From positions 1 through 54,865 of IMG/VR virus record IMGVR_UViG_3300046413_000898: DNA of 54,865 nt. One strand, 5' to 3'. Each line of letters opens with the position of its first letter. The first letter of the stretch is position 1. The notes under the pieces are model-generated. The model had not been told where the DNA came from. It saw only the letters and a program-made list of their open reading frames with translations, and searched no databases. Position numbers and translations under genes: made by a program. The DNA is from a virus. This document shows, piece after piece, positions 1 through 51,371 of the stretch.

Positions 1-20
1 CGATCGGATCAGGGGTTGGG

Positions 21-413
21 TCAGGTGGGGGTGATGACGACGGTGACGCCGGGTTCCTGCCCGTCCGGCACGTATGCCTTCTGGGCGGTGAGCCGCACGA
101 CTCGGGAGTCCTCAGCGAGCACCCCACCCGCCTGCAGCGAGTCGAGCAGGGATCGGCTGAGTTTATCGAGGTCGGGCTTCACTGCGGGCACCAGCCACCT
201 GGGTCTCTTGGGGCGTGGCATCCAGAAGCACAGTTCGACGTGGACGGGCTGGTCGATCGGTGGGCCGTCGTGCTGCGCGGCGACTGAGGCGGTGACCGTG
301 GTTCGCCAGGCTTTGTGGCGCTTGTTCGCCTCGTAGAGCCGCCCGGTGCGGGTCACGGACTTCGAGCCCTGCGGCACCGGGGTACCAACCGTCAGCGACC
401 GATGCAGAGTCAT
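21..413 (-). CDS. rusA: RusA-family Holliday junction resolvase (module A)
   Basis: This 130-aa protein is a RusA-type endonuclease that cuts Holliday junctions or branched DNA during phage recombination and replication. The acidic core typical of the family is visible as KPDLDKLSRSLLDSL, followed by [14 protein letters not shown]. The start is the ATG at 413, which overlaps the stop of the upstream gene as ATGA. It is nearly identical to the protein at 42208-42600: the first ~115 bases of the two coding ends match exactly. The next gene lies beyond the left edge. Confidence 0.93.
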   Translation of the reverse strand: MTLHRSLTVGTPVPQGSKSVTRTGRLYEANKRHKAWRTTVTASVAAQHDGPPIDQPVHVELCFWMPRPKRPRWLVPAVKPDLDKLSRSLLDSLQAGGVLAEDSRVVRLTAQKAYVPDGQEPGVTVVITPT

Positions 414-637
414 TCGACACGCTCCTGCCAATCTCGGTACCGCAGGGTCCAGGAGTTCTCCCTGCCCCTTCCTTCTGCAACGGCCAGGATTTCTCGGCGC
501 CCTACGGCAGTGATCTCGATCGTGGTGGGACCATAGCCCTCATCTCCGACGAGCCGAGTGCCTGGACCCCACCCGCGGCGACGGGCGTAGTCCGCGGAGC
601 TCTCACCGTGGCGCATGTGCGGGTTGGTCGTGCTCAC
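410..637 (-). CDS. Hypothetical protein, 75 aa
   Basis: This small, arginine-rich protein of unknown function sits between the GDTLTVGDLTDAH protein and RusA, with 4-base overlaps at both ends, so it is translationally coupled. It starts with GTG at 637. The middle part (GTRLVGDEGYGPTTIEITAVGRREILA) looks like a small beta-rich fold. It is absent from module B, where a methyltransferase gene occupies this position. Confidence 0.75.
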   Translation of the reverse strand: MSTTNPHMRHGESSADYARRRGWGPGTRLVGDEGYGPTTIEITAVGRREILAVAEGRGRENSWTLRYRDWQERVE

Positions 638-1269
638 TTGACGCGCTCCCTACGAGTCCACGGGCCACAGAGCGGGCGTCGCATGTCCGACAGCATGTAC
701 CCCGACCGCCACGAACCAACCTCGTCGTCCCACCACCACGGGTAGCCGTCATCAACTTCGATCCACTTCCATGCGCGCAGGTGGGTGTCGTTGTCGGGCC
801 ACTCGCCCACCTCGATGCGCTCCGGCACCACCGGGGTGTCGTCGGGCCAGCGGGGCGGGTCCGACACGATGATCTGACGGTCGCCAGCGCGGACCAGTAT
901 GAGGTCCCAAGGCCACCAGTTCTCGTCCGTGTCCAGGATCGGGCATCTCTTGTCTTGCGGATCAGCGACCACGCCCAGCCAGTCGTCCCCCTTGATGCGG
1001 ATGCACTGCCCGAGGATCGTCGGCTTGTCCGGCTGCACCACCGGGGGCGGAGTGATGACCTTGATCGGGCGGGAGACCCGAGCCGCCTTGTACCCACCCT
1101 CCGACGTGAACAGGCGCAGGGCGTCTGCATGGGCCTCTTCAATTCGGCCCAGTGTCATTCGGGTCCGCACCCCCTGCCCGTCGTCCACCTCGATCTCTGC
1201 GCCCAGGTGGGCGTCCGTCAGGTCGCCCACCGTCAGGGTGTCACCCGCGCTGATCTTCTTCGTGCTCAT
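634..1269 (-). CDS. Conserved phage protein with GDTLTVGDLTDAH N-terminus (module A)
   Basis: This 211-aa protein of unknown function starts at ATG 1269 behind a GGAG site. The N-terminus (GDTLTVGDLTDAHLGAEIEV) and a mid-protein block (IITPPPVVQPDKPTILGQ in the relative) are shared with the 213-aa protein at 43532-44173. The C-terminal half is rich in Trp and Asp (GEWPDNDTHLRAWKWIEV). The two versions differ mainly in residues 40-70 and at the C-terminus. Its position just before RusA in both modules suggests a role in early DNA metabolism; this is inference only. Confidence 0.8.
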   Translation of the reverse strand: MSTKKISAGDTLTVGDLTDAHLGAEIEVDDGQGVRTRMTLGRIEEAHADALRLFTSEGGYKAARVSRPIKVITPPPVVQPDKPTILGQCIRIKGDDWLGVVADPQDKRCPILDTDENWWPWDLILVRAGDRQIIVSDPPRWPDDTPVVPERIEVGEWPDNDTHLRAWKWIEVDDGYPWWWDDEVGSWRSGYMLSDMRRPLCGPWTRRERVK

Positions 1270-1293
1270 TGCTATGTCTCCTCGGTGTGGGGC

Positions 1294-1323
1294 GCGGCCC
1301 CCACACGTGAGCGTGGGGGCCGC
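1294..1323 (-). terminator. Strong hairpin between recT and next gene
   Basis: Two perfect 12-base G+C arms, GCGGCCCCCAC(A) and its complement, form a hairpin in the gap after recT. There is no U-run, so it may act as an mRNA-stabilising or attenuating hairpin rather than a true terminator. Confidence 0.5.
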
Positions 1324-1342
1324 TGGTGTTGATGGGGTGGGG

Positions 1343-2356
1343 TCACTCGCCCACAGGGGCGGTGTCCCAGTCGAGCGTCTCCGGGCCATCGCCGTCCTGC
1401 TGGGCGTCAGCCTCGAGCTCGGCGATGAACGCCTCGATCTCGTCGCTGCTCAGCCCGGCGATGCTCTCGACCTTGCGGGTGATGCCCTGTTCGGACACCC
1501 ACGCCTGCACCGCGGTGGACTTCGCTCCCCGGTCCTCGAAGCCCTGAGCCACCAGCGCCGCGTCGAGGCGCTGCCACTGGCCCCGTTTGGACTTCACGAA
1601 GTCGTCGCTGGTCTCCGTGTCGTCGGCGTCCGTGTCGGGGGCGTCAGCCGGCTCGGGCTCCGGGGCGTCGGACACGTCCGGGGTCTCCGGTTCGGGCTGC
1701 TTCTTCGCTCGCGCCGGGGTCTTGCGCTTCACCGTGCGCGGCTTCGACTCCACCGCCGCAGGGGCCGGGGCGCTGGTGTCGCCGTCGAGGTTGATCTCCT
1801 CGACAGACGTGGCCGCCATGCCGGATAGCACGTCGGCGAACATCGTGCGGCACGCCTCGGTCTGCGCCTTCGCGGTGAGCATCGCGGTGGGGTCCTGCGA
1901 GTACAGCTTGTTGCTGGTGTACCCAGCCTTCTGTGCGCGCTGGATGGTCCAGGTGAACTCGGTCCAGTTCGCGGACCCCCGGCGGCGGGCGCGCACGGTG
2001 ACGGCCTGTTCCGTCGCGGCGGTGCGCTCGATCTCGTGTCCGTGGGACAGGACCAGTGCCACCATCGTGCGTGCGTAAAGGGCGGGCTTGCCCTGCACGA
2101 TGAAGATGTTGGACAGGGCGTTCATCGGCGCCAGGCCGATCTCGCGGCCGGTGAGGATCGCCGCGGCGGTGGCTTCGACGTTGCCGCGCAGCCCGCGGGG
2201 GACGAACTCGGTGCCGCAGAGGACAGCGGCGATGCGCCCGGCGGCGTCGAGCTCCGCGGCCCAATCGGCCAGGGCCATCACGGTCTCGGATGCGGCCTGG
2301 GGCTGGGTGGCTACGGCTTTGCCGTCTCGGTCGAAGGGGGACAGTTCGTTGCTCAT
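1343..2356 (-). CDS. recT: RecT-family single-strand annealing protein (module A)
   Basis: This 337-aa protein anneals complementary single strands and works with the exonuclease encoded upstream. Residues ~10-200 form the RecT-type domain (AAAILTGREIGLAPMNALSN, KPALYARTMVALVLSHGHEI, AQKAGYTSNKLY, AQTEACRTMFADVLSG). An acidic, Pro-rich linker (~200-260) leads to a C-terminal helical domain beginning at KRGQWQRLDAAL. The relative at 47329-47997 keeps the core but lacks this C-terminal domain. The chosen ATG at 2356 follows GGAG by 5 bases; an in-frame ATG lies 18 bases upstream. Confidence 0.9.
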   Translation of the reverse strand: MSNELSPFDRDGKAVATQPQAASETVMALADWAAELDAAGRIAAVLCGTEFVPRGLRGNVEATAAAILTGREIGLAPMNALSNIFIVQGKPALYARTMVALVLSHGHEIERTAATEQAVTVRARRRGSANWTEFTWTIQRAQKAGYTSNKLYSQDPTAMLTAKAQTEACRTMFADVLSGMAATSVEEINLDGDTSAPAPAAVESKPRTVKRKTPARAKKQPEPETPDVSDAPEPEPADAPDTDADDTETSDDFVKSKRGQWQRLDAALVAQGFEDRGAKSTAVQAWVSEQGITRKVESIAGLSSDEIEAFIAELEADAQQDGDGPETLDWDTAPVGE

Positions 2357-2370
2357 GGTGTTCTCCTGGG

Positions 2371-2682
2371 TCACTTGATGCTGATCTTGGGGGCGGCCAC
2401 CTTGGTGTAGGCGTCGCGGGTGAGGTCGTCAATCTCGTCGGTGAGCAGCGAGTAGCGGGTCTCGGGCTCGTAGAGATCGGGGGCCTCGGTGGGCGGGTAG
2501 TCGCGCTCGAATCCGGCCTTGTCGAACCGGCGGTTGGGGATGACGGTGAGGGTGTGCTCGCCGGCTTCGTGCTTGCCCAGCGGCAGGGAGCGCAGCACCT
2601 CCTCGATCTCGGCCATGCGGGCCTTGTGCTGCAGGTACTCGGCCACCAGGTCGGCGGTCGTGGTCTCGGGGGTGGTGGTCAT
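2371..2682 (-). CDS. Hypothetical early protein, 103 aa
   Basis: An acidic protein of unknown function lying between the exonuclease and RecT genes. It has a helical N-terminal half (LVAEYLQHKARMAEIEEVLRSL) followed by a Tyr/Pro-rich part. It starts at ATG 2682, overlapping the upstream stop. The 119-aa helical protein at 46983-47342 occupies the matching place in module B, but I see no clear similarity. Confidence 0.75.
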   Translation of the reverse strand: MTTTPETTTADLVAEYLQHKARMAEIEEVLRSLPLGKHEAGEHTLTVIPNRRFDKAGFERDYPPTEAPDLYEPETRYSLLTDEIDDLTRDAYTKVAAPKISIK

Positions 2683-2897
2683 GGTGTGGTCTCCTTGGTG
2701 CGTTCCTGGATGTTCTTCTTCATGGTGGTGAGGGCGTCGATCAGACGCCCCACGTCGTCGGCGTCGAGGAATACCTCGGTGTATGTCGTCGGGATTCTCT
2801 TGTGTCGTTCGGTGATGTCGATTGCAACCCACTGGTCCTCGTAGTACAGGTCCAGGTACCCACGTCCGGCGCGGCACTCAACATGGAAGGCGCTCAT
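2679..2897 (-). CDS. Hypothetical early protein, 72 aa
   Basis: A small protein of unknown function (MSAFHVECRAGRGYLDLYYE), overlapping the exonuclease stop as ATGA and the next gene start by 4 bases. It has predicted beta strands at the N-terminus and a helix at the C-terminus (DADDVGRLIDALTTMKKNI). It has no counterpart in module B. Confidence 0.72.
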   Translation of the reverse strand: MSAFHVECRAGRGYLDLYYEDQWVAIDITERHKRIPTTYTEVFLDADDVGRLIDALTTMKKNIQERTKETTP

Positions 2898-3718
2898 GCT
2901 GTGGTCTCCTTCTCGGTAGTGGTGGGTGGGTCTAGTGGGGGCCGCAGGAACGCTTCCCGGCGGCCGGCGTTCTTGGTCGTGAACGCCGCTACGAGGAACT
3001 GCCGGTACGCCTCCGCGATCTCTTCGCGGCTGGTGCACAGCGGGTGCAGGTCGGTGCCCTGCGGGGTGATGTGCGCGACGTAGGTGGCGGCGATGTCGGG
3101 CATGGGTCGCTCGTCGTCGCCGTCCACCCAGAACTCGGCGCGCGCGTAGGCCGCGGTCTGCAGCGCGGTCTCCCCGTACACGTGGTTGCTTGTCTTGAGG
3201 TCGATCAGCACCGGCTCCCCGTCGTTCAGGTAGGGGCTGGTCGCTACGAGGTCGAGGGTCCCAGCCCACCAGTCGCCCCGGTGGGCGACCATCACCTCGG
3301 TCAGCACCGGGGACACTTCCCACGTGTCGAGGAACTCGAGGTATCCCTCGACCTCAGCGGCGTGGGCGTCGGGCACCTCGACCTCGTTGCCGGCGATGAT
3401 CTGTTCGGCGAGTGCGTGGATCTCGGTGCCCCGGTCAGCGGCGGCGTCTCGCACTTCCCCTGGGACCTTGCAGAGCCGGTCCACTAGGGCAGTGCGGGTG
3501 CGGCCCCTCGACCTCACATCGGGCAGCCCGCGCAGCCGCTCGACCTCCTGCGGGTTAGCGTCCACCCACTCGGCGACCATGCGCCCATGCCAGGGCGCGA
3601 TCGCGGGTTTCGGGATGCCGCCGCCGATCAGGGTGGTGACGCCCTGCACCTTGGCTTGGACGCCCTGTGGGGTGTCGAGGGTGTACCGGTGTCGTCCTGG
3701 CTCGAAGGTCAGCCCCAT
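2894..3718 (-). CDS. PD-(D/E)XK exonuclease, YqaJ/Cas4-like (module A)
   Basis: A 274-aa nuclease likely to resect double-stranded ends and load the RecT protein. The RGTEIHALAEQ helix is at ~97-106, the first acidic residue at Asp156 (GTLD), the catalytic Asp173-Leu-Lys175 within LIDLKTSN, and the QTAAYA motif at ~187-192, as in RecB-like phage exonucleases. It is paralogous to the 258-aa protein at 47994-48770. The ATG at 3718 overlaps the upstream stop (ATGA). Confidence 0.88.
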   Translation of the reverse strand: MGLTFEPGRHRYTLDTPQGVQAKVQGVTTLIGGGIPKPAIAPWHGRMVAEWVDANPQEVERLRGLPDVRSRGRTRTALVDRLCKVPGEVRDAAADRGTEIHALAEQIIAGNEVEVPDAHAAEVEGYLEFLDTWEVSPVLTEVMVAHRGDWWAGTLDLVATSPYLNDGEPVLIDLKTSNHVYGETALQTAAYARAEFWVDGDDERPMPDIAATYVAHITPQGTDLHPLCTSREEIAEAYRQFLVAAFTTKNAGRREAFLRPPLDPPTTTEKETTA

Positions 3719-4128
3719 CAGACTGCCCTCGAGAAGATGCCGTCACGGATGCGGCGGGGCCGGGCCGCGGCGACCGCTCCGCGCCAGTCTCCCAGCGCCC
3801 GGCCGATGGACTCGGCCATGTCGTCCCGCTCCACCTGGGTGGCGAACTGGTCGCCCGTGGGCCAGTCGCTGATCAGGTCACCGAGAGCGGTGAGCCCGAT
3901 GACTCGGGCGCCGAAGGCGATGGTGAGCGCGGCCTGGATGACCTCGGGGGCGTCGGTGTCGCGGTGCTCCCTGATGTACCAGGCGACGGCCTCGACGGCC
4001 TCGTCGTCGGTGCGGATCAGGTCGGGGGCGATGTGCGCCCCGTCGTGTGCCGCCCCCAGGGGTTCCACCTCGTCGGCGGGCTCCGGGGGCTCGTGGTACA
4101 TGCGCTCGATGGTAGCGAGGCTGGTCAT
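3718..4128 (-). CDS. Hypothetical early protein, 136 aa
   Basis: An acidic protein of unknown function with a clear GGAGACAGCACC-ATG start, coupled to the exonuclease by a 4-base overlap. The middle is helical (EAVEAVAWYIREHRD, EVIQAALTIAFGARVIGL). The C-terminus is basic (GAVAAARPRRIRDGIFSRAV). Confidence 0.75.
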   Translation of the reverse strand: MTSLATIERMYHEPPEPADEVEPLGAAHDGAHIAPDLIRTDDEAVEAVAWYIREHRDTDAPEVIQAALTIAFGARVIGLTALGDLISDWPTGDQFATQVERDDMAESIGRALGDWRGAVAAARPRRIRDGIFSRAV

Positions 4129-4147
4129 GGTGCTGTCTCCTGTCTGC

Positions 4148-4501
4148 TCATGCGGTGGTGCTGTTGTCGATCCAGGCGTCGATCGGTGCGGCGATGCTCC
4201 GCCAGCGGCGAGATCGCCGGTCGGCCTCCTTATCGTAGAGCCCGCGGTAGGTGCCGATGTAGCCGCCCTTCCGTGAAGCCTTCGAGGACTTCACCGTCCG
4301 GTCTGTTTTCTCGATCCATCCGCGGTTCACAGCCCGAATCAACGCGCCTTGCCATGCCGACCCGGCGGGCGGCGGGCCGCACACTTCTTCGAGGTCCTCG
4401 ACGGTGAACTCCGCGAACTTGTCTGCCGTCTCCTGGATCGCGTTCTCCGCCGCGGCGTGCCATTCCTCGGCCGTCTGGTCGAGTGCCATGGGCTTGCTCA
4501 T
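4148..4501 (-). CDS. Conserved hypothetical with GYIGTYRGLYD motif (module A)
   Basis: This 117-aa protein of unknown function is strongly conserved with the 95-aa protein at 49398-49685 (TAEEWHAAAENAIQETAD, FTVEDLEEVCGPPPAGSAW, GYIGTYRGLYD). The conserved WIEKTDRTVKSSKASRKGG segment looks like a winged-helix or restriction-related wing. The module A form adds ~25 C-terminal residues ending in INDSTTA-like sequence. The start ATG 4501 follows GAGAAGGAGAAGCC. Confidence 0.8.
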   Translation of the reverse strand: MSKPMALDQTAEEWHAAAENAIQETADKFAEFTVEDLEEVCGPPPAGSAWQGALIRAVNRGWIEKTDRTVKSSKASRKGGYIGTYRGLYDKEADRRSRRWRSIAAPIDAWIDNSTTA

Positions 4502-4608
4502 GGCTTCTCCTTCTCCCAGCTCCGCCGGCCGCCATGCAGCACTGCCCACGCCGTCCAAGCGAACGCGGCCCATGCGGCGACCGCGAGCAACACGATCCCC
4601 GCCGTCAC
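4498..4608 (-). CDS. Small single-pass membrane protein, 36 aa
   Basis: A single hydrophobic helix (IVLLAVAAWAAFAWTAWAVL) is followed by a basic tail (HGGRRSWEKEKP). The start is the GTG at 4608, overlapping the stop of the upstream mini-gene, with GGAGGG upstream. The function is unknown; it sits in the place of the 60-aa membrane protein of module B. Confidence 0.6.
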   Translation of the reverse strand: MTAGIVLLAVAAWAAFAWTAWAVLHGGRRSWEKEKP

Positions 4609-4715
4609 TGGTCTCCCTCCTGTCGCCATGGGCGGGCGATCAGCAGCACGACTGCGATGACCGCCAGCGTCAGCAGGAAGTCGGGGTGAAGTCCCCACTC
4701 GATCCACTCGGGCAT
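4605..4715 (-). CDS. Small membrane protein MPEWIEWG (module A)
   Basis: A 36-aa protein with a conserved N-terminal amphipathic stretch (MPEWIEWGLHPDFLLT), one transmembrane helix and a charged tail. It is the first gene after the structured RNA and has a counterpart in the same place at 50913-51020. The Shine-Dalgarno region AAGGAGGAGAC is identical in both copies. The conserved link to the RNA suggests co-regulation. Confidence 0.72.
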   Translation of the reverse strand: MPEWIEWGLHPDFLLTLAVIAVVLLIARPWRQEGDQ

Positions 4716-4738
4716 GTCTCCTCCTTGGGTGCGGGTGA

Positions 4739-4764
4739 GGCCCGGCACCAGTCGGTGTCGGGCC
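4739..4764 (-). terminator. Hairpin downstream of structured RNA (module A)
   Basis: A GGCCCG...CGGGCC hairpin sits 24 bases past the RNA. Unlike the module B counterpart it lacks a T-run, so it may be a weak terminator or attenuator. Confidence 0.45.
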
Positions 4765-4787
4765 GTCGTTGTGTCTGGTGTTCGTCC

Positions 4788-5065
4788 CACCTGGTCAGGC
4801 GAGCACGATCCGCTTGGCGCTCCGGGATCTACCGGGGCGACTTCCCTCACACCGTGCGGTTGCCTGCCGCAGCCTTATCGGGCTGTACCCACCCGCCATG
4901 CGGGTGCTCTGCGACGTGTAGGGGCTGGCCGGTCACCGGCCCCCGTAACGCTGTGGTGTGGGGTATATGCCTTCACCCTCCGCATCGCCTCGTGAGGCTC
5001 ACATGCGGTGGGCGCCCGGTGAATCTCCGGGTGTGTCGTGCGGATCGTGCTAGTCCGACCAGGTG
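4788..5065 (-). ncRNA. Large structured RNA of unrecognised class (copy A)
   Basis: This is a ~278-nt non-coding element between the HTH gene and the 36-aa membrane protein gene. The ends pair over a long range: outer CACCTGGTC with GACCAGGTG, an internal loop, then 12 bp of AGCACGATCCGC with its complement. Inner helices, read on the minus strand, include CCCGG/CCGGG, CCGCAT/ATGCGG enclosing GCCTC-AC-GAGGC, GGCCGG-TGA-CCGGCC, CACCCGC/GCGGGTG and CAGCC/GGCTG. Copy B (51095-51371) keeps these helices with different bases and conserves single-stranded blocks such as AGCGTTACGGGG, CCGATAAGG and GTGAGGGAAG. The orientation is inferred from the operon and the copy B terminator. Confidence 0.75.
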
Positions 5066-5072
5066 CGGCGTC

Positions 5073-5240
5073 TTAGGCCTTGGGCAGCCAGGGCGCCAGG
5101 TTGCTCTCGGGGATGACCCAGCGTGCGCCCCGCCCGGTCTTTACCGCGTCGGGGAAGGACTTGTCGTGGATCATCCGCATGATGGTGGTGCGGGAGACTC
5201 GCAGGAGCTCGGCTGCCTCGTGTGTCGTGTAGTTCTTCAT
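5073..5240 (-). CDS. Excisionase/MerR-type HTH DNA-binding protein (module A)
   Basis: A 55-aa protein with one helix-turn-helix (HEAAELLRVSRTTIMRMIHD) and a basic wing (KTGRGARWVIPESNL), typical of HTH_17/excisionase-like proteins. It follows a strong AAGGAGGTGACG-ATG start and faces the plus-strand operon across a divergent promoter region. It is a candidate early regulator of its own and the divergent promoter. The counterpart is at 51379-51540. Confidence 0.85.
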   Translation of the reverse strand: MKNYTTHEAAELLRVSRTTIMRMIHDKSFPDAVKTGRGARWVIPESNLAPWLPKA

Positions 5241-5268
5241 CGTCACCTCCTTGGTGCGTCGTAGTCAC

Positions 5269-5297
5269 AGCATGGCACACGGTGGAGCGCCAGGCAA
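5269..5297 (-). promoter_or_regulatory. Probable minus-strand early promoter (module A)
   Basis: Minus-strand TTGCCT, a 17-base spacer and CATGCT lie upstream of the HTH gene. The same layout (TTGCAC, 17, CATGCT) is kept at 51569-51597 although the rest of the region has diverged. Confidence 0.55.
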
Positions 5298-5334
5298 CAC
5301 CCCGACCCCCTTAGTGCCGTAATGATGCGTCATG

Positions 5335-5363
5335 TTGCGCAGTGACGCGCGGTGACGTACTGT
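5335..5363 (+). promoter_or_regulatory. Probable plus-strand promoter with GTGACG repeats (module A)
   Basis: TTGCGC, a 17-base spacer and TACTGT precede the 96-aa gene. The stretch 5341-5370 carries three GTGACG half-sites at 10-11-base spacing, plausible operator sites for the adjacent HTH protein. Confidence 0.45.
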
Positions 5364-5399
5364 GACGCCATGAACAACCGCACCACCAAGGAGCACGAC

Positions 5400-5690
5400 A
5401 TGCAGACCTTCACCAAGGCCCTCAAGACCATCGACGCCGGCACCACCTCCATTGGCATCGATGCCTGGACCCAAGAGGACGGCAAGCTGCGCGGCACCAT
5501 CTGGCGCCGCGCAGATGAGGAGACCGCCGCAGGCAAGTGGGACAGCGTGCTCGCGGCCTTCATCGCCGACGAGGGCGAGGATCACGACGACATGATCGGC
5601 CGTCTCCGCCAGGCCGACTGGCTCCCCGAGGAGTGGGTCCACTACGACCTCGGCGGCGACGAGGGCGACACCATCGCAGCGACTCGCTGA
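5400..5690 (+). CDS. Hypothetical protein, 96 aa (plus-strand operon)
   Basis: The first gene of the divergent plus-strand operon, started at the ATG behind AAGGAGCACGAC rather than an upstream in-frame ATG. It is acidic (MQTFTKALKTIDAGTTSIGI, DEGEDHDDMIGRLRQ) and of unknown function. Its position equals that of the 79-aa gene in module B, and the two share the leader sequence but not the protein. Confidence 0.7.
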   Translation: MQTFTKALKTIDAGTTSIGIDAWTQEDGKLRGTIWRRADEETAAGKWDSVLAAFIADEGEDHDDMIGRLRQADWLPEEWVHYDLGGDEGDTIAATR

Positions 5691-5708
5691 CGCCGAGGGT
5701 GAACCAGG

Positions 5709-6251
5709 ATGGGCTTCGCTGAAATGCCACTAGCCATGTCCGTCCCCGGTCTCACCCCTGTGGAGCGGCTCGTGCTCACATCCGTGGCTGAGCACTCGCG
5801 CCGATCGGAGGGGTGGACGATGTTCTGGGGGCAGAAGCGCCTGGCCGCACGCCTCAATGTGTCCGACCGGGCGGTGCGCAACGCATATGTGCGCCTTGAG
5901 GACATGGGGCTGGTCACCCGCACCAAGCGCACCCGGGGCGATGGCGAGAACCGCCGGCGCACCACGGACCTTGTGCGCTTCAACGTGGAAGCCGTCCGCC
6001 GGGCAGCAGATGCGGAACTGAGTTCCTCCACTAGCGGAAGTGAGTTCCGCAGGTCAGCGGAACTGAGTTCCGCGCTTAACAGGGAAGGAGAACAGGGAAG
6101 TGAACATGCATCTGCGGAACTGAGTTCCGCTAGTCGCCAGGACCCCCCGCCAGCAGACGATGATGATGGATGGAACAACGACGACTGGCACATCACAGAC
6201 GGACCAGCACCGATAGACCACAGCGCCGGTCACTACGACTGGACCGCCTGA
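5709..6251 (+). CDS. Winged-helix replication-initiator-like protein with internal iterons
   Basis: A 180-aa protein. Residues ~15-85 form a winged HTH of the HTH_36/replication initiator kind (TPVERLVLTSVAEHS, RLAARLNVSDRAVRNAYVRLEDMGLV). The C-terminal half is low-complexity and contains the repeated peptide AELSS, coded by four copies of a 17-bp palindrome. Initiator genes that contain their own origin are common in phages, so an origin role is plausible. The start is uncertain; ATGs at 5724 and 5736 are alternatives. It is plus-strand, unlike the module B initiator gene. Confidence 0.7.
   Translation: MGFAEMPLAMSVPGLTPVERLVLTSVAEHSRRSEGWTMFWGQKRLAARLNVSDRAVRNAYVRLEDMGLVTRTKRTRGDGENRRRTTDLVRFNVEAVRRAADAELSSSTSGSEFRRSAELSSALNREGEQGSEHASAELSSASRQDPPPADDDDGWNNDDWHITDGPAPIDHSAGHYDWTA
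6012..6130. repeat. Four palindromic 17-bp iterons inside the initiator-like gene
   Basis: GCGGAACTGAGTTCCGC occurs exactly at 6057-6073 and 6114-6130, with one mismatch at 6034-6050, and in truncated form at 6012-6027. Each is a perfect 8-bp dyad around a single base. This is a candidate replication origin or autoregulatory operator array. Confidence 0.85.
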
Positions 6252-6290
6252 CCCACGAACCACCACCACCCGCACGATAGGATCCCCACC

Positions 6291-6584
6291 ATGAGCACCA
6301 CCCGCATCATCAAGACACAGTCCGAGCAGCGCACCTACACCGGCAACCGCTCACGCGGCCTCCTCGGCTTCACCATCGGCCTGCCTCTGGTCCTGGCATG
6401 CTTCGTCGCCGCGATCGCCACCTGGGGCAACAACGAGGACCTGGGACGGCTGTTCTTCGTCGCCGGGCTGATTGCGTTCGCCTGGTTCGTGGTGTCGATC
6501 CTCCGACTGCTGTTGTTCGTGCTCTCAGGTGACCGGGACGTGACGGTCACCAGCCCCACCGAGTACACGGTGGTGGAGGACTGA
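6291..6584 (+). CDS. Two-helix membrane protein, 97 aa
   Basis: The third gene of the plus-strand operon, with a charged N-terminus and two hydrophobic helices at ~25-45 (LLGFTIGLPLVLACFVAAIA) and ~54-76. It lies tail-to-tail with the lysis operon. The function is unknown; a membrane protein next to the control region could act in superinfection exclusion (inference only). Confidence 0.68.
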   Translation: MSTTRIIKTQSEQRTYTGNRSRGLLGFTIGLPLVLACFVAAIATWGNNEDLGRLFFVAGLIAFAWFVVSILRLLLFVLSGDRDVTVTSPTEYTVVED

Positions 6585-6604
6585 CCACACCCGGGCATGA
6601 CGAA

Positions 6605-6646
6605 ATGGCCCCCGGCCACCTCCACAGGGGAGGGGCCGGGGGCCAT
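6605..6646 (-). terminator. Lysis-operon terminator (module A)
   Basis: Perfect 13-base arms ATGGCCCCCGGCC and GGCCGGGGGCCAT lie between the converging lysis operon and plus-strand operon. Only a short T-run follows on the minus strand; it may stop both. Confidence 0.65.
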
Positions 6647-6662
6647 GTTCATCGGCGACGGA

Positions 6663-7112
6663 TCAGGTGCCCACCTGCCGCGCCAGTCGCGCCACCGGAT
6701 CGGTGTCGTCGTCGTGGTCGTCGTCCACGGTCTGCTCGAGCTCGACCGGGGAGTCAGTGACGGCCTGGTCCTCGGTGAGGACGAGGCCGTCGGTAGGGAT
6801 CTGGTCGGGGTCCACGAGGTTCGAGGCGTACTCCCCGGTCTCGTCCGGCGAGTCCACCTGCGGCGGCAGGGGATCACGGGCCGGGTCGCGCTTGGCGTAG
6901 CCGGCCAGGACTGCGCCGGTGGCGCCGATGGCGACGAACACTGGCGCTGACCAGACGCCGAGACTCTGCACGGCTTCCTGGGGGATCGCCAGCAGGAAGG
7001 CGGCCGCGATACCAGCCAGGGCGGTCAGTGCACCGCCGGTGACGATGCCCGCGGTGACCTTGGGGCTGATGCGGGTGGGATCGGTGGATGCGCTGGCTGC
7101 GTGGCGGCTCAT
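6663..7112 (-). CDS. Holin-like membrane protein (module A)
   Basis: This 149-aa protein has two hydrophobic helices (GIVTGGALTALAGIAAAFLLAI and APVFVAIGATGAVLAGYA) and a long acidic cytoplasmic tail ending in DTDPVARLARQV. The same tail ending (DDPVARLAKQV) occurs in the holin at 52055-52501. It is coupled to the lysin stop by an ATGA-type overlap. It probably permeabilises the membrane to release the lysin. Confidence 0.78.
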   Translation of the reverse strand: MSRHAASASTDPTRISPKVTAGIVTGGALTALAGIAAAFLLAIPQEAVQSLGVWSAPVFVAIGATGAVLAGYAKRDPARDPLPPQVDSPDETGEYASNLVDPDQIPTDGLVLTEDQAVTDSPVELEQTVDDDHDDDTDPVARLARQVGT

Positions 7113-8176
7113 GCCTGCACCTCCTTGATCTGATCGGCCGGCACCTGGCGGGTGATGCGGGCGTCGGAGACGACGGTGACCGTGTCGGCCTGCGCTGCGT
7201 TGATCGCGGCGGACACGATCTGCTCGAGACGCTCCTTGTCCAGGCCAGCGGCGATGGTGCGCAGCGTCACCGATGACTTCTCGCGCATCCGCTGTTCGAG
7301 GATGCGGTGGGACTCGTTGAGGGTGCGCTCGTGGCGCTGCCACCCCAGGAACTCGCTGATGGTCTGCTCACCCTTGGCGGAACCCTGGGCGGGAATCTTG
7401 GCGCTGAGAAGCGCCTGCACGATGCGCTTCTCGGTGCGTTCGTTCTCCTCTCGGATGACGGCGCGGAACTCTTCCTTGGAGGCCATGTCAGACCACTCCT
7501 TCGTCTCGGTCGGGGCCGCCGGGGTTACCGGCTTGGCGGTGGCGGATGCCCGGGCGGGCGCGCCAGTGGGATTAGAGTAAGACCACGAGTGCTTGCCGGT
7601 GGCTGTCACCCACGCCTGGGCGGAGCGCAGTCCCTCGATCTTGCCCGGCAGCAGGGAGGCGTCGATCTTCCCCATCGAGGACCACTCGTAGTGGGCCAGC
7701 TGCAGGAAAGTGTCCGGGGCGGCAGGCTTATACATCCGCGCCAGTGCGGAGGCCAGGTAGGGCCACACGCGGATCTGGTCCGCGGTCCAGTCAGCCGGGG
7801 CGACCCCGGAGGACTCGGCCTCGATACCGATCAGCCAGCCGTTGCCCCCGTTGAGCGGCACCCCGCCGATCGGGCCGCCGACGCCGGCGTGATTCGCCCA
7901 CCCGGCGGCGACCACGTAGACCTCGCCGCCGCGCCCGAAGGCGAGGTTGCACAGCGGGCCGGGAAGGTCGGAACGTCCGCCGATCAGCATGTTCAGCGTC
8001 GGCGAGCCGGTGGTGTAGCGACGGGCGCTGGTCGTGGCCGTGTGATGGTGCAGCACGCCCTTCGGGGTGCCGTAGAACCCGCGCCCGGCCCATCCGCGGG
8101 TCTTCCACCCGTTGGTCTCGATCACGGTCAGGCCGTGCTTGCGCAGCCCGTCCGCCAGGTCAGTGAGCATCACCAT
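7109..8176 (-). CDS. Endolysin, N-acetylmuramoyl-L-alanine amidase (module A)
   Basis: A 355-aa cell-wall hydrolase. Residues ~20-190 form an Amidase_2/PGRP-like zinc domain with HHHTAT (~43-48), NHAGVGG and a late HYEWSSMGKID motif that matches the usual third zinc ligand and catalytic Lys. A Pro/Ala linker (~200-230) leads to a helical C-terminal region (EEFRAVIREENERTEKRIVQ...) that may oligomerise or bind the wall. The ATG 8176 follows AGGAG by 7 bases. Module B uses an unrelated lysin here. Confidence 0.88.
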   Translation of the reverse strand: MVMLTDLADGLRKHGLTVIETNGWKTRGWAGRGFYGTPKGVLHHHTATTSARRYTTGSPTLNMLIGGRSDLPGPLCNLAFGRGGEVYVVAAGWANHAGVGGPIGGVPLNGGNGWLIGIEAESSGVAPADWTADQIRVWPYLASALARMYKPAAPDTFLQLAHYEWSSMGKIDASLLPGKIEGLRSAQAWVTATGKHSWSYSNPTGAPARASATAKPVTPAAPTETKEWSDMASKEEFRAVIREENERTEKRIVQALLSAKIPAQGSAKGEQTISEFLGWQRHERTLNESHRILEQRMREKSSVTLRTIAAGLDKERLEQIVSAAINAAQADTVTVVSDARITRQVPADQIKEVQA

Positions 8177-8189
8177 GTGATGACTCCTC

Positions 8190-8606
8190 TCATGAAGAAT
8201 CCCCCGTGTCAGGCGGGGGCTTGGTGTGTAGTGGGCGTGAGCGCATGTTCTGCAGGTGCTGCAGGATCCGCCACGACAACGACGGAACCGGTGGACGCGC
8301 GCCGTCCTGCACCCACTTCACCACCGGGACCATGTCATCGATCAGTTCGTCCCGGTCGCGCAGGGCTCCCTCTAGGGCCACGAGGCGGCGGGTGTGCTCC
8401 GAGGACTCTGCCCGCAGGCTCTTGAGCTCTTGCTCCTGGCGGGTGAGTGCGCTTTCGAGGGTTTTCTGCCACTCGGACTGCACCGTGGTGGAGCGGTCCA
8501 CGCGCCGCGCCCACCACACCAGAAAGGCCGTGATCAAGGCGCCACCGGTGGTTATGAGCGCGGCCAGCACAGTAGGTTCCAGCGGCATCATGGCGGGACT
8601 AATCAC
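8190..8606 (-). CDS. Holin-like protein, one TM plus coiled coil (module A)
   Basis: A 138-aa protein with one N-terminal membrane helix (TVLAALITTGGALITAFLVWW) and a long coiled coil (LESALTRQEQELKSLRAE). This layout is seen in single-TM phage holins or spanin-like partners. The GTG at 8606 is chosen from the GGGGG site 5 bases upstream. It is near-identical to 54022-54453. Confidence 0.75.
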   Translation of the reverse strand: MISPAMMPLEPTVLAALITTGGALITAFLVWWARRVDRSTTVQSEWQKTLESALTRQEQELKSLRAESSEHTRRLVALEGALRDRDELIDDMVPVVKWVQDGARPPVPSLSWRILQHLQNMRSRPLHTKPPPDTGDSS

Positions 8607-9159
8607 GGCCACCCCCTGCCCTTACCCTCGGGGCATAGTCAAACGCGCCAGCGTGCGCCGCCAGCGCCAAAAGGGTCATCACCGCCCGAGTCCAGTAGTT
8701 CGCCGTGGACCCCCACCCCGAGCTCACATGCGGCGGACCACCAGCACCACCGCCACTACCGGCAGGGAACCCCATCAACCCAGAGGACTCCCACAGCAAC
8801 CACGGGCCCAGGAACAGTGCGCCGATCAGCAGTGGGATGATCACCAGCACCGAGCCAATCAGGATCAGCTGCTGCCTGGCCGCCTCACCACGCACCACAG
8901 ACAGCACCACACCCAACGCCGCCAGAACAGCGGCGACCATCCAGACACCGGCGATCACATGCGGAGTCATCCACCCCGCCACCCACGACACACCATCAAC
9001 CCGCGCCGGCGACGGACGGGACCACCACGAAGCCGCCATCAGCGCATGGGAGATCGCAAGAACAGCGAGGACCACACGGAAGAACGCCGACCTGGACACG
9101 GGAACGGGTACGCCCCGGCCGCCTAGGGGTGGCTCAGGGTCTGGTCTGTGGGTGTTCAT
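8599..9159 (-). CDS. Membrane protein of lysis module, 186 aa (module A)
   Basis: A protein of unknown function with four hydrophobic segments (~27-48, 68-90, 100-125 and ~160-175) and a Gly-rich loop (GFPAGSGGGAGGPPHVSSG). It starts at ATG 9159, just inside the tail-protein stop. The truncated gene at 54446-54865 is near-identical over the visible part. It may be a holin or antiholin partner. Confidence 0.75.
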   Translation of the reverse strand: MNTHRPDPEPPLGGRGVPVPVSRSAFFRVVLAVLAISHALMAASWWSRPSPARVDGVSWVAGWMTPHVIAGVWMVAAVLAALGVVLSVVRGEAARQQLILIGSVLVIIPLLIGALFLGPWLLWESSGLMGFPAGSGGGAGGPPHVSSGWGSTANYWTRAVMTLLALAAHAGAFDYAPRVRAGGGRD

Positions 9160-42158: not shown

Positions 42159-42207
42159 TTGGTTCTCCTTGGTTGTGTTCTGCGAGCCGCTCGGATCAGG
42201 GGTTGGG

Positions 42208-42600
42208 TCAGGTGGGGGTGATGACGACGGTGACGCCGGGTTCCTGCCCGTCCGGCACGTATGCCTTCTGGGCGGTGAGCCGCACGACTCGGGAGTCCTC
42301 AGCGAGAACCCCGCCGGTCTGCAGTGAGTCCAGGATGGACCGGGTGAGCTTGTCGAGGTCGGGCTTGACGGCGGGCACCGGCCACCTGGGTCGCTTGGGG
42401 CGCGGCATCCAGAAGACGAGCTCGACGTGCACGGGCTGGTCGATTGGTGGGCCGTCGTGCTGCGCGGCGACCGAGGCGGTGACAGTGGCCCGCCACGCCT
42501 TGTGGCGCTTGTTCGCCTCGTAGAGCCGCCCGGTGCGGGTGACGGACTTCGAGCCCTGCGGCACCGGGGTGCCAACCGTCAGCGAGCGATGCAGGGTCAC
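42208..42600 (-). CDS. rusA: RusA-family Holliday junction resolvase (module B)
   Basis: Near-identical 130-aa copy of the protein at 21-413, with the same [14 protein letters not shown] and [14 protein letters not shown] motifs. It starts with GTG overlapping the stop of the methyltransferase gene. Its first codons are duplicated at the start of that methyltransferase. Confidence 0.93.
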
Positions 42601-42601
42601 T
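42568..42601. repeat. 34-bp direct repeat, copy 1 (rusA start)
   Basis: 34 bases over the start of rusA. Only two differ from copy 2 at 43503-43536. Together the two flank the methyltransferase gene. Confidence 0.88.
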
Positions 42602-43535
42602 CGCCCACCTCTTCATTCATATTGGTGTCCTCTACGAAGCCTTGCCCGATTAGCCGCTTTCTCGCCAGCTCCATATATTCCGGGTTCAACTCAATTCCAG
42701 CGAATCGTCTACCTAACAGCCCCGCCGACAGTGCCGTTGTTCCCGACCCCATAAAGGGATCGAGAACAATATCGCCCGGTTGGCTTGCGGTTAATATGCA
42801 CGGATCTACAAGAGTCGGCGGAAATGTTGCAAAATGACCGGACGCTTCACGGTACGCCCGCGTTTTCACATCCCACACAGTGCGCAGTCGCCTGTCGTTC
42901 GGTCCTTTTACTGCACCGACATCGTATAGGTACCTCTCCGACTTCGAGAGTAAGAACACATACTCGTGACTCCTCGTTGGTCGATCTCGAACACTTTCAG
43001 GCTGACAATTGGGCTTGTTCCAGACAATATCGGACCGCAGGTACCATCCGCGCTCCTGCAGTGCGAAGGCTAGGCGCCAGGGAACACCTATCAAATCTTT
43101 TGGCTTCAAACCTTCGGGAGTATTCGGGCGTTGACTCATGGCGCGAGCTGCATTCTTCTTGTCAGGCGCGCGCCAGGTTCGCCCTCCACTGGTGTAGGAG
43201 TCGCCTATATTTAACCAAAGCGTTCCATCATCCCTCAGCACCTGATATACGAGATCAAACACGTCTGCAAGCGCTTCGATGAAGGAGTAGACGCTGCTTT
43301 CGAGACCGATCTGCCCGTCAATCTTGTAATCCCGAAGCGACCAGTAAGGTGGAGACGTGACCACGGTTTGCGCCGAAGCCTTAGGCATCTCCGCAAGCAC
43401 TTCGTGAGCGTCTCCGAGAATTAGCGCTGACCGATTCATCACGGTCAGGTAGTCCGCCTCCGGCGGATGCTCGAAGGTGCCGAACCTCGGATAAGCGATG
43501 GAGGTGCCCACCGTCAGCGATCGATGCAGGGTCAC
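42597..43535 (-). CDS. N4-cytosine/N6-adenine DNA methyltransferase
   Basis: A 312-aa beta-class DNA methyltransferase. The catalytic motif TSPPYWSLRDY is at ~60-70 and the SAM-binding DPFMGSGTTALSAG at ~259-272, with GIELNPEYMELARKR near the end. It may protect phage DNA against host restriction. Its G+C is visibly lower than that of its neighbours. The first ~11 residues ([11 protein letters not shown]) duplicate the RusA start, and the conserved domain begins at MNRSALILGDA. No partner endonuclease gene was found. Confidence 0.88.
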   Translation of the reverse strand: MTLHRSLTVGTSIAYPRFGTFEHPPEADYLTVMNRSALILGDAHEVLAEMPKASAQTVVTSPPYWSLRDYKIDGQIGLESSVYSFIEALADVFDLVYQVLRDDGTLWLNIGDSYTSGGRTWRAPDKKNAARAMSQRPNTPEGLKPKDLIGVPWRLAFALQERGWYLRSDIVWNKPNCQPESVRDRPTRSHEYVFLLSKSERYLYDVGAVKGPNDRRLRTVWDVKTRAYREASGHFATFPPTLVDPCILTASQPGDIVLDPFMGSGTTALSAGLLGRRFAGIELNPEYMELARKRLIGQGFVEDTNMNEEVGE

Positions 43536-43536
43536 T
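43503..43536. repeat. 34-bp direct repeat, copy 2 (methyltransferase start)
   Basis: Second copy of the RusA start sequence. The methyltransferase begins in it and borrows its start codon and first ~11 codons. Confidence 0.88.
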
Positions 43537-44173
43537 TGACGCGCTCCCCACGAGTCCACGGGCCGTCGAGAGGCTTCACATAGCCCCCGTCGCGGTCGAT
43601 CCACGGACGGACCCAGCCACCCTCCTGGGGGACCCACCGCCAGATGTAGTCGTCGATTTCTATCCACTCCCACTCGCGCAGGTGCATGTCGTCGTCGGGC
43701 CACTCGCCCACCTCGATGCGCTCCGGCACGTCCGGGGTCTCGTCGGGCCAGCGGGGCGGGTCCGACACGATGATCTGACGATCACCGGCACGGCGCAAGA
43801 CGTAGTCCCAGTGCCGCCAGTACCCGTCCATATCCCAGAGCAGGCCTCTCCCCTCCTGAAGATCAACGACCATACCCCGCCAGTCGTCGTCCCCCTCGAT
43901 GCGGATGCGCTGCCCGAGGATCGTGGGCTTGTCCGGCTGCACCACCGGGGGCGGGGTGATGATCTTGACGGGAGTGGAACGGGTGAACGCCCTCCTCTCC
44001 TCCCCGCGCTCGGTGACCAGCCTCGTGAAGGCGTAACCAGTGTCGATGCTTCCGAGCGTCAGCCGGTAGAGGATCCCCTCCGGCTCTCCGACCTCGATGA
44101 ACGCCCCCACGTGGGCGTCCGTCAGGTCACCCACCGTCAGGGTGTCACCCGCGCTGATCTTCTTCGTGCTCAT
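43532..44173 (-). CDS. Conserved phage protein with GDTLTVGDLTDAH N-terminus (module B)
   Basis: 213-aa homologue of the protein at 634-1269. It shares the first 23 residues, VVQPDKPTILGQ, and a DRQIIVSDPPRWPDETP block. The middle (residues 30-65) and the WRW/WVRPW C-terminus differ. The function is unknown. Confidence 0.8.
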   Translation of the reverse strand: MSTKKISAGDTLTVGDLTDAHVGAFIEVGEPEGILYRLTLGSIDTGYAFTRLVTERGEERRAFTRSTPVKIITPPPVVQPDKPTILGQRIRIEGDDDWRGMVVDLQEGRGLLWDMDGYWRHWDYVLRRAGDRQIIVSDPPRWPDETPDVPERIEVGEWPDDDMHLREWEWIEIDDYIWRWVPQEGGWVRPWIDRDGGYVKPLDGPWTRGERVK

Positions 44174-44271
44174 TGCCCTGTCTCCTTCCTCGTGTGAAGC
44201 CCTCAGAATCGTTTCTGCGGGCCTAGAAACTGCTCACCCCCACACGGGGGCGTCCAACACCTGCCCGGCGC

Positions 44272-45537
44272 TCACGCAGCAACCTCCGACTGACCACGCC
44301 CATACAGGCGCGCCCGCACCGACGCAGGCACATCCTCATCATTCCAAGGCAGCGGGCCACTCGTCGTCAGCACATCCGGCCACGCCCGCTGATCACGATC
44401 ACCACGCCACCGCGACAACTCGATCACCCGCCGACGCTCCGACGACTCCTCCACGTCCAACCGCAGCCCAATACCGAACTCCGGCCAGCCAAGCAACGCC
44501 GATGAGCCACGAGGCGCGAGGTTCCTATCCCCCGCCGAGTTCGTGCCCTTCCCGGCGTGAGCCTCGATCAGCAGCGACAACCCCCGGTCCCGGATCGAAT
44601 CCAAGGCCGTGAGCACAGGCGCCGCTTCGTCATCCGTCGTGATGGCCCGCGACGTGATCTTGTACAGCGGGCCGATCGCCACCAGATCCGGTTCGATCTC
44701 GTCGATCTTCCGGTGCACCGCCCCGATGTGGGACTCCCTGGTCACGTCCAGCCGTGGCGAGCACACAACGTGCACCCGCTCTCTCGGGTCCCCCTGGGTG
44801 CCCGCCTTGAGCAGCGTCTCAACCATTGGGGACACGGCGCGCTTCCACTGCCGTTCACTGTTCTCCGCGTCGATCACCAACACCCGCAGAGGCGTGATGT
44901 CCGTCAGCGCGAAAGGGTGCAACCCGGCCGCGAGGCAAAGCACCATCTGCCGGATGAACATCGTTTTGCCCGTACCCTCCGCGCCGGTGAGCATCAGCCG
45001 GTCTCCGCGCTCCATGAGCCCATCGACCAACCAGTCATAGTTCGCCGGGACCTTGAGCAGATCCCCGAGCTCCTTCCCTTGGAGGACACCTTCTGTGGAA
45101 CCTGCCCGCAACTGCCGGAGGCCCTCGATCATCTGAGACAAGGCCTCCCCTGTCTCGGCCCCCTGCGCCTGGGCGATGACCTGCTGCATGGACCGACGCA
45201 CCCAGGACTCGTGAACGGTGTTCGCCAGGGCGGAGACGGTGTGCTCCGTCATGCCCCACACCGACGACGCCCACGAGTGCGGGTCCGCCGGCGAAAGTCC
45301 CCGGATGCCCTTGCGTTCGATCTCGATCCCCAGGGTCCCTGGGTCCAGCGGGGACTTCGCCGCCCACGCGGTGGTGACGAGGTCCCAGCATTGCTCCATG
45401 CGCGGGTCGTAGAACTCGCAGGAAGTGACCACGGCGGACGCGACCCTGAGCAGGTCGGGGTTGAAGGTGACCGCCCCGATCAGCTGCTGCTCGGCGGTGA
45501 AGCCGTTCACAGTGCGCTGCTCGAAAGGTTCATCCAT
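44272..45537 (-). CDS. DnaB/RepA-like replicative ATPase, 421 aa
   Basis: Residues ~10-120 resemble the DnaB N-terminal domain. Walker A GAEGTGKT is at 185-192, and the Walker B-like VLVIDAEN and RecA-like C-terminal core follow to ~390. It is probably the phage replicative helicase or loader, partner of the initiator gene just upstream. Module A shows no such gene within the window. Confidence 0.86.
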   Translation of the reverse strand: MDEPFEQRTVNGFTAEQQLIGAVTFNPDLLRVASAVVTSCEFYDPRMEQCWDLVTTAWAAKSPLDPGTLGIEIERKGIRGLSPADPHSWASSVWGMTEHTVSALANTVHESWVRRSMQQVIAQAQGAETGEALSQMIEGLRQLRAGSTEGVLQGKELGDLLKVPANYDWLVDGLMERGDRLMLTGAEGTGKTMFIRQMVLCLAAGLHPFALTDITPLRVLVIDAENSERQWKRAVSPMVETLLKAGTQGDPRERVHVVCSPRLDVTRESHIGAVHRKIDEIEPDLVAIGPLYKITSRAITTDDEAAPVLTALDSIRDRGLSLLIEAHAGKGTNSAGDRNLAPRGSSALLGWPEFGIGLRLDVEESSERRRVIELSRWRGDRDQRAWPDVLTTSGPLPWNDEDVPASVRARLYGRGQSEVAA

Positions 45538-46163: not shown

Positions 46164-46356
46164 CGGCATCACCGTCAAGCATCCGGTCGAGGTCGGCGCG
46201 CTTGAAGCGCAGCCGCCCGGCCATTTCGTCGCGGGTCAACCCCAGGGTGTTGCCCTTGTCGAGGAAGTACATGAGGGTTCGGTACTCGGCCTCGATTCGT
46301 TCGCGGCTGACGTCCAAGAACTCGAGGACGAGCCGTTGTCTGCTATCCTGTTCCAT
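46156..46356 (-). CDS. Hypothetical early protein, 66 aa
   Basis: An acidic/basic helical protein (RLVLEFLDVSRERIEAEYRTLMYFLDKG) with a possible HTH at TRDEMAGRLRFKRADLDRML. AAAGGAGACAAC-ATG sets the start; ATG 46425, overlapping the upstream stop, is the alternative. Confidence 0.65.
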   Translation of the reverse strand: MEQDSRQRLVLEFLDVSRERIEAEYRTLMYFLDKGNTLGLTRDEMAGRLRFKRADLDRMLDGDADE

Positions 46357-46380
46357 GTTGTCTCCTTTCTTCGCGGTGAA

Positions 46381-46407
46381 GGCCCCTAGCCCTCTTGGAT
46401 AGGGGCC
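46381..46407 (-). terminator. Hairpin upstream of the 66-aa gene
   Basis: GGCCCCTA/TAGGGGCC arms with an 11-base loop, no long U-run on the minus strand. Probably an attenuator or mRNA-processing hairpin. Confidence 0.45.
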
Positions 46408-46421
46408 TTCGCTGTTGGTGC

Positions 46422-49881: not shown

Positions 49882-50916
49882 TCAGCTGGCGTGATGCCAG
49901 GTCATGTCTGAACGTCGAACGAACGTGAGCAGCGCCTTCACGTGGGCGAACTGCAACGCGGCCGCGTAGGCCATCTCCGGGACCAGTGCGGCGGCCACCA
50001 GGCGGTGACGCCACCCCATACCCCAGACCGTCACGACCCGCTCCACGATGAACACCGCCAAGATCGCCAGCCCCCACCAGGACGGCTGCAGGCCGTAGAT
50101 CGGGGTGAGTACCGCGGTGAGGACCAGGAACGACCAGAACGCGAGGATGGACACCAGCAGCAGCGCCTGCTGCCGCCAGTACACCGCCGTCACACGATTG
50201 AGGCCGTGCCGGGTCACAACGTCCAGCGCCCCACGCGACCAACGAGCTCGCTGCTTGATCAGGTCCGGGATCGTGTCCATCGTGTCCGTCAGCACCCCAC
50301 ACCCAGCCGGCGAGGTCAGGCGCGCGCCGGTCGCCTTGAGGCGCACCGTGAGGTCGAAGTCCTCCGTGATCGCATCCTCGTCGTAGTACGAGCCGTAGCG
50401 GGCACGCACAGCCTCGAGGGCCGACATGCGGATCAGCGCCGCCGTGCCCGACAGAACATGCGTGTGGTCGCTCATCGTGTTCTGAACGGTGTAGCGCTCC
50501 CACTCCCTCGCAGTGCACCCACGCAACCAGCCCGTGTCGTCGTCCGCGAGGAACACCGCGCCAGCCGCATCCGCACGGCCACGCGGCCCAGGCCCCAGTG
50601 CATCGAGTGCGTTCTGCACCCACACCGGGGACATCACCGTGTCAGCGTCCATCGGCAGCACCATGTCCCACGGGGACGGGTCAGCGTAGGCGATCGCCCG
50701 ATTGAGAGCTCCTGCCTTGCGTCCGGTGATCTTCCCGAAGTCCACGACCTCGATCCGCGGGTCACGCACTCGCGCCGCCGACGCCACAGTGATGTCGTCC
50801 TGCGCGTTGTTCACCGCAACAATCAGCCTGTCAGGGGACCGCGTCTGGTCCAGCAGGGACCGCAGCGTCCGGTCGATGTCCGGCTCCGTCACGGCCGGCA
50901 CGATAGCGATGATCAC
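49882..50916 (-). CDS. Membrane GT2 glycosyltransferase, 344 aa
   Basis: Processive GT2-type enzyme: PMDAD at ~88-92 (DxD), TEDFDLT at ~184-190 (catalytic base), QRARW at ~222-226 (the Q-x-x-R-W motif of cellulose, chitin and hyaluronan synthase types), then three or four C-terminal membrane helices (~250-330). It could build or modify a surface polysaccharide and block superinfection, but the target is not visible. Absent from module A. Confidence 0.88.
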   Translation of the reverse strand: MIIAIVPAVTEPDIDRTLRSLLDQTRSPDRLIVAVNNAQDDITVASAARVRDPRIEVVDFGKITGRKAGALNRAIAYADPSPWDMVLPMDADTVMSPVWVQNALDALGPGPRGRADAAGAVFLADDDTGWLRGCTAREWERYTVQNTMSDHTHVLSGTAALIRMSALEAVRARYGSYYDEDAITEDFDLTVRLKATGARLTSPAGCGVLTDTMDTIPDLIKQRARWSRGALDVVTRHGLNRVTAVYWRQQALLLVSILAFWSFLVLTAVLTPIYGLQPSWWGLAILAVFIVERVVTVWGMGWRHRLVAAALVPEMAYAAALQFAHVKALLTFVRRSDMTWHHAS

Positions 50917-51020
50917 GACTCGTCACCCCTCCAGAACAGGGCCACCAGTCCGATGACCGCGATGATCCCGATGGTCAGCAGGAAGTCGGGGTGCATCCCC
51001 CACTCGAGCCACTCAGGCAT
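50913..51020 (-). CDS. Small membrane protein MPEWLEWG (module B)
   Basis: A 35-aa protein (MPEWLEWGMHPDFLLT then one membrane helix and WRGDES). It is the first gene after the structured RNA, as in module A, and overlaps the glycosyltransferase start. Confidence 0.72.
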   Translation of the reverse strand: MPEWLEWGMHPDFLLTIGIIAVIGLVALFWRGDES

Positions 51021-51038: not shown

Positions 51039-51070
51039 AAAAAAGCCCCGGCTCCTCGAAGGGCGCCGGG
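51039..51070 (-). terminator. Rho-independent terminator after the structured RNA (module B)
   Basis: Minus strand: CCCGGC/GCCGGG stem with an inner CCT/AGG pair, then TTTTTT. It lies ~25 bases after the RNA and ~18 bases before the small membrane gene, a layout for attenuation or for ending a free RNA. Confidence 0.82.
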
Positions 51071-51094
51071 ACGGGTTCTGCGTGTTGTCTCTAC

Positions 51095-51371
51095 CACCTG
51101 ACCAGTTCAAGCAGCACCGATTCGCGCCCAGGAACCTGCCTGGGCGGCTTCCCTCACGCTTCACGGTTGCCTGCCGCAGCCTTATCGGACTGTGTCCACC
51201 CGCCATACGGGTGCTCTGCGACGTGTGGGCACCGACCGGTCACCGGCCCCGTAACGCTCTGCGTGGGTTATATTTCTTCATCCGCCGTGTCGCCTCGTAA
51301 GGCTCACACACAGTGGATGTCCGGTGAAACTCCGGATCGTGTTGCTCGGTGCTGCTTGAACCAGCCAGGTG
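51095..51371 (-). ncRNA. Large structured RNA of unrecognised class (copy B)
   Basis: 277 nt closed by CACCTG/CAGGTG, an internal loop, and a 15-bp helix of TTCAAGCAGCACCGA with its exact complement. The inner closing helix has no sequence similarity to copy A but pairs fully. CATCC-A-CTGTGT/ACACGG-C-GGATG replaces CCC-A-CCGCAT/ATGCGG-A-GGG of copy A, and CACGC/GCGTG replaces CACACC/GGTGTG. It is not a tRNA, tmRNA, RNase P, 6S or riboswitch form that I recognise. Confidence 0.78.

Follow-up and report, generated by a model that had tools for sequence, protein, structure and literature searches.

The 54,865-nucleotide window analysed here contains what appears to be a real, conserved and unclassified structured RNA, probably present once in each of two related phages, and its structure, derived from two sequences, is well supported. 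RNA A (4788..5065, minus strand) lies in the phage that we call X and RNA B (51095..51371, minus strand) in phage Y. Their minimum free energies are -151 kcal/mol (z -5.9 versus shuffles) and -146 kcal/mol (z -7.3 versus shuffles), respectively, and the two share a common fold. Both elements, of about 277 nt, are located where the original prediction had placed them, between a gene for a helix-turn-helix (HTH) protein and the gene for a small membrane peptide, MPEW. Each begins no more than about 10 nt past the stop codon of the HTH gene (53–55 aa) and ends approximately 70 nt upstream of the MPEW gene (35–36 aa).

Probably two related phages in one record

Comparison of the record with itself revealed that positions 1–9018 are collinear with 42188–54865. 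Identity between these early regions is 95% for the SSB-side gene, about 80% for one further gene, 61% for a gene of unknown function, about 51% for the exonuclease and 46% for RecT, with 85–96% for the lysis-side genes and 78% (DNA) for the block of MPEW, RNA and HTH gene. The homology continues up to both ends of the record, where the last 114 nt are an exact repeat of 8905–9018 and the first 119 nt match 42188–42306 except at one base. The interiors of the two early regions are far less similar than these end overlaps of about 115 nt. Near-exact overlaps at the ends together with divergent interiors are the pattern expected when an assembly graph joins two phages that have a late region in common, and the simplest, and probable, account of the record is that it combines two related actinobacterial-type phages with one common late region (about 9.0–42.2 kb). 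A real tandem of relatives, or terminal redundancy that has since diverged, would be a possible if less economical account. The terminase, portal, capsid and tail genes are those of a tailed phage, and among named phages those closest in terminase sequence infect Streptomyces and Gordonia.

Phage X is represented by the early region 1–9018, which carries RNA A, and phage Y by 42188–54865, which carries RNA B. Because the early regions are collinear and the record ends overlap its interior, the two RNAs are read as probable orthologues, occupying one locus in two phages with no duplication within a phage. The original prediction had described them as two copies in one phage, which is probably not the case. 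An argument likening the element to the put RNAs discussed below, on the ground that a single phage would use two copies for two of its operons, was abandoned once the early regions proved collinear, and any duplication claimed in the window should be re-read with the composite record in mind. Since an apparent duplication is turned into two orthologues, the compensatory changes between A and B become informative.

Two details of these regions deserve mention. A conserved pair of genes, about 61% identical (43532–44173 and 634–1389, minus strand), is of unknown function and matches nothing in PHROG or Pfam. In phage Y, the endolysin-like gene (563 aa, 52494–54185) matches that of phage X (7109–8612) at its two ends only, with 62% and 41% identity, a pattern suggestive of a swapped central part.

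Common fold and compensatory changes

Folding of the A/B pair with RNAalifold gave 85 common base pairs in 11 helices, of which 16 pairs are changed on both sides, eight on one side and none is broken. Shuffling of alignment columns with refolding yielded 4.6 ± 1.8 both-side changes over the whole element, and none of 500 shuffles reached the 16 seen. In the part enclosed by the closing helix, P1, there are seven both-side changes in five helices versus 2.2 ± 1.3 in shuffled alignments, a value reached by one of 500 shuffles. When the 3′ letters were dealt out at random, the real pairing was reached in 0 of 500 trials. A sliding control, in which 32–40% of cells were paired when slid, carries a bias, since the same two sequences had supplied the structure. 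The common fold and the shuffle tests thus support the large structured RNA with compensatory changes that had been proposed.

P1 is formed in RNA A by 5040..5065 (5′ strand) pairing with 4813–4788 (3′ strand, 4788..4813), and in RNA B by 51346..51371 pairing with 51120–51095 (51095..51120), all on the minus strand. It is only 58% identical between A and B, yet all 24 consensus pairs are kept, nine of them with both sides changed and none broken, which bears out the predicted compensation of the closing helix; the part inside P1 is 81% identical. Other helices also change while keeping their pairs, as had been noticed, and their number is larger than the two first reported, namely five besides the closing one. 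The blocks described as invariant and single-stranded are, by contrast, partly paired in the common fold, where GCG of AGCGTTACGGGG lies in P5, GTGAGG of GTGAGGGAAG in P4 and CC of CCGATAAGG in P9.

P1 closes a multi-branch that contains, in order, P2, P3, a joint ending in AUAUA, the P4 domain and P10 (all minus strand). P2 (A 5015..5031, B 51336–51320) is a hairpin with a 7-nt loop and one both-side change. The core domain (A 4845..4962, B 51267–51152) is closed by P4, which in RNA A pairs 4962–4955 with 4852–4845; its strands are CCCACACC and GGUGUGAGG in A, and CCCACGC and GCGUGAGG in B. P4 encloses P5, P6 and P7, the last of which contains P8, P9 and an unpaired GATAAGG, and one both-side change is found in each of P4 and P9. 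P10 (A 4817..4841, B 51148–51124), the last hairpin before P1 closes, also has one. The pairing of P7 and of the apical stem of P3 is only predicted, as both are invariant between the two RNAs.

The P3 hairpin (A 4974..5014, B 51319–51279; minus strand) contains a motif that we assign to the kink-turns, by visual inspection and on the basis of what is established for such motifs. The sequence is CCGCA-UGU-GA-GCCU...AGGC-GA-UGCGG in A and CUGUG-UGU-GA-GCCU...AGGC-GA-CACGG in B, so that a 3-nt UGU bulge, tandem G-A/A-G pairs and the NC and C stems can all be recognized. The defining bases and the GCCU-AGGC stem are identical in A and B, and the C-stem is compensated, with three both-side and two one-side changes in the flanking stem. 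The kink-turn is a building block and defines no class, and alone it says nothing on function.

The RNA most likely corresponds to the minus strand, in the same sense as the flanking genes, as suggested by an excess of G-U pairs and by a common fold stronger than that of the plus strand. The helices contain 12 G-U pairs versus two A-C juxtapositions (partly counted by eye). The plus strand also yields a low-energy common fold, as might be expected if the element acted as DNA, for example as an origin or recombination site with a folding strand and no transcript. The minus-strand fold is, however, the stronger (-135 versus -122), one-sided G-U changes favour it by eight to three, and the element is oriented with the flanking operon, all of which makes a DNA-level role scarcely credible. 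A protein-coding reading was rejected on account of 1-nt insertions and deletions between the two cores and of the pairing-preserving changes.

Comparison with known RNA classes and search for relatives

A search of the whole window against Rfam 15 returned no match at the gathering score, and with permissive thresholds the best sub-threshold hits (E 0.07–0.6) were chance-like, in agreement with the earlier impression that no known RNA class fits. The large ornate RNAs GOLLD, ROOL and OLE are big folded bacterial or phage RNAs of unclear function (PMC12286853). The present element resembles them as a large folded RNA, but is shorter and matches none of their Rfam families.

Its size and complexity, together with conserved unpaired stretches in the core, could conceivably reflect self-cleavage or self-splicing, by which the RNA would process the transcript of the HTH gene. 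The Rfam covariance models for group I and group II introns gave no match, nor did any self-cleaving ribozyme family in Rfam, and both neighbouring genes are complete, which would leave splicing nothing to join; we consider such an activity highly improbable. Of the functions first suggested (riboregulator, antiterminator or ribozyme-like element), the last is therefore left without specific support, while the first two are possible and fit the layout of terminator and ribosome-binding site described below.

A covariance model built from A and B (R1) recovers its own two members, by construction, at 324–335 bits (323.7 for A and 335.2 for B), and a positive control was run. Applied to phage genomes, as had been suggested, the model detected no homologue among 84 related records, comprising 80 IMG/VR phages with a related terminase and four Arthrobacter/Glutamicibacter phages. 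BLAST comparison with the IMG/VR phages carrying a related terminase gave short matches only, none of them to the RNA, and in the nearest relative (G001, terminase 76%) the HTH gene is also absent. DNA similarity searches of phage and plasmid records returned nothing or short chance matches, searches of IMG/VR and GTDB contigs for patterns of conserved blocks returned nothing or chance matches within coding sequence, and neither the HTH nor the MPEW protein yielded a close relative that could serve as an anchor. Three kinds of candidate were set aside: a 56-nt, 13-bit model match inside an HTH gene (L112), judged to be chance; a pattern match within coding sequence (L005); and matches to GTCGCAG...GATAAGGCTGCGGC only, likewise judged to be chance, in a coding stretch of phages of about 120 kb and others (L105–L109; for example L105 8625–8670, L106 2502–2547 and L109 6379–6424). 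As a model built from two sequences can reach only relatives of moderate divergence, the lack of a relative in the collections searched points to rarity or poor sampling, and not to uniqueness.

Genomic setting and possible control of read-through

The gene order is common to both phages: HTH gene, RNA, hairpin and MPEW, with the exonuclease and RecT further on. All of the features described here are on the minus strand. The HTH gene of phage X (5073..5240, 55 aa) encodes an excisionase-family DNA-binding domain (TIGR01764, E 1.8e-10, above the cut-off; PF12728, E 3.9e-12), and that of phage Y (51379..51540, 53 aa) matches TIGR01764 with E 1.3e-11. RNA B is followed by an intrinsic terminator (51039..51072; stem 51072–51045, six U at 51044–51039), which confirms the one predicted after this copy. 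The counterpart past RNA A (4739..4764) is a stable hairpin (-20.9 kcal/mol, z -5.2) without a U tract, so that a clear terminator is seen in phage Y only. The spacer between P1 and the hairpin is 22–23 nt in both phages, despite its diverged sequence. The MPEW genes, recognized from sequence, follow at 4605..4715 in phage X (36 aa) and 50913..51020 in phage Y (35 aa); the latter has a ribosome-binding site, AAGGAGG (51031–51025), about 7 nt past the U tract.

Upstream, a very strong intrinsic terminator (51953–51995; stem of -38 kcal/mol, six U) marks the end of the preceding lysis unit in phage Y, which implies that the HTH unit starts afresh. A consensus scan reported no promoter; by eye, TTGC-17-CATGCT is conserved upstream of both HTH genes. 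As the gap of about 7 nt between U tract and ribosome-binding site leaves no room for a promoter, expression of MPEW in phage Y would have to come from read-through, unless a promoter is hidden within the RNA or hairpin.

The succession of RNA, hairpin and ribosome-binding site is typical of termination-level control, and we tentatively propose that the nascent RNA acts in cis to set read-through past the hairpin into the early operon (MPEW, exonuclease and RecT), the likeliest of the readings considered, if still short of probable. The single RNA of each phage, at the same locus, would be part of a leftward early transcript begun upstream of the HTH gene. As the polymerase moves out of the HTH gene, the RNA would fold into a compact domain closed by P1; some 22 nt further on comes the terminator-type hairpin, with the MPEW ribosome-binding site right behind it. 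Once folded, and either unaided or in complex with a protein or ligand, the RNA could then set how much transcription continues past the hairpin into MPEW, exonuclease and RecT. Here we infer the cis action, the effect on read-through and its direction alike. In favour of this reading are the compensated fold (P1, P2, P3, P4, P9 and P10), the shared gene order, the constant spacer, the narrow gap before the ribosome-binding site, the strong terminator upstream of the HTH unit and the G-U excess that points to the strand of these genes. Against it stand the missing U tract in phage X, the lack of a promoter in the consensus scan, the restriction to two sequences and the failure to find mutually exclusive pairing between RNA and hairpin, as in both phages the lowest-energy fold of the entire stretch contains P1 and the hairpin together.

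The main rival is a free-standing non-coding RNA or RNP that acts in trans: produced on the transcript of the HTH gene, then excised or terminated at the hairpin, and with P1 holding it together, it would act elsewhere in the cell. The element is indeed a self-contained domain whose long closing helix drifts in sequence while remaining paired, the phage Y terminator would supply a 3′ end, and kink-turns are often bound by proteins. Such an RNA would, however, leave MPEW of phage Y without a visible promoter past the terminator, and the phage X hairpin is no clear terminator; we regard a trans role as possible, if rather unlikely.

Read-through control would place the element nearest in its working to two known systems, terminator-coupled leader RNAs and put, and on the features tested it is a member of neither. 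With riboswitches and T-box leaders it shares, in phage Y, the succession of a structured domain, a terminator and the ribosome-binding site of an operon; in phage X the hairpin without a U tract takes the terminator's place. Those leaders open their transcripts, whereas here the RNA follows a gene, shows no antiterminator pairing and has no Rfam match. A ligand-sensing riboswitch ahead of the early operon would suit the multi-helix fold, the kink-turn sequence, the conserved joints and the terminator and ribosome-binding site that come next, but no Rfam riboswitch matches, alternative pairing with the terminator is lacking, a gene precedes the RNA and no metabolic gene lies directly behind in both phages, which makes it quite improbable. 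The put RNAs of phage HK022 (putL and putR), of about 70 nt and two stem-loops, suppress downstream termination without dedicated protein factors (PMC9378689). The likeness lies in a structured nascent RNA within a phage early unit; at about 277 nt and 11 helices, and in another host group, the present element does not have the size or shape of put. HK022, moreover, has two put elements, as opposed to one element per phage here, where read-through is a proposal. We consider it unlikely that actinobacterial phages have here a new class of large RNA, with several times the size of put, which alone or with one protein alters the elongation complex or the decision taken at the terminator. Should it govern read-through, the RNA would stand out by its size among the RNA regulators of early transcription in actinobacterial-group phages.

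In phage Y, a gene for a family 2 glycosyltransferase (49882–50916, minus strand) is located between MPEW and the recombination genes; it is absent from this position in phage X.
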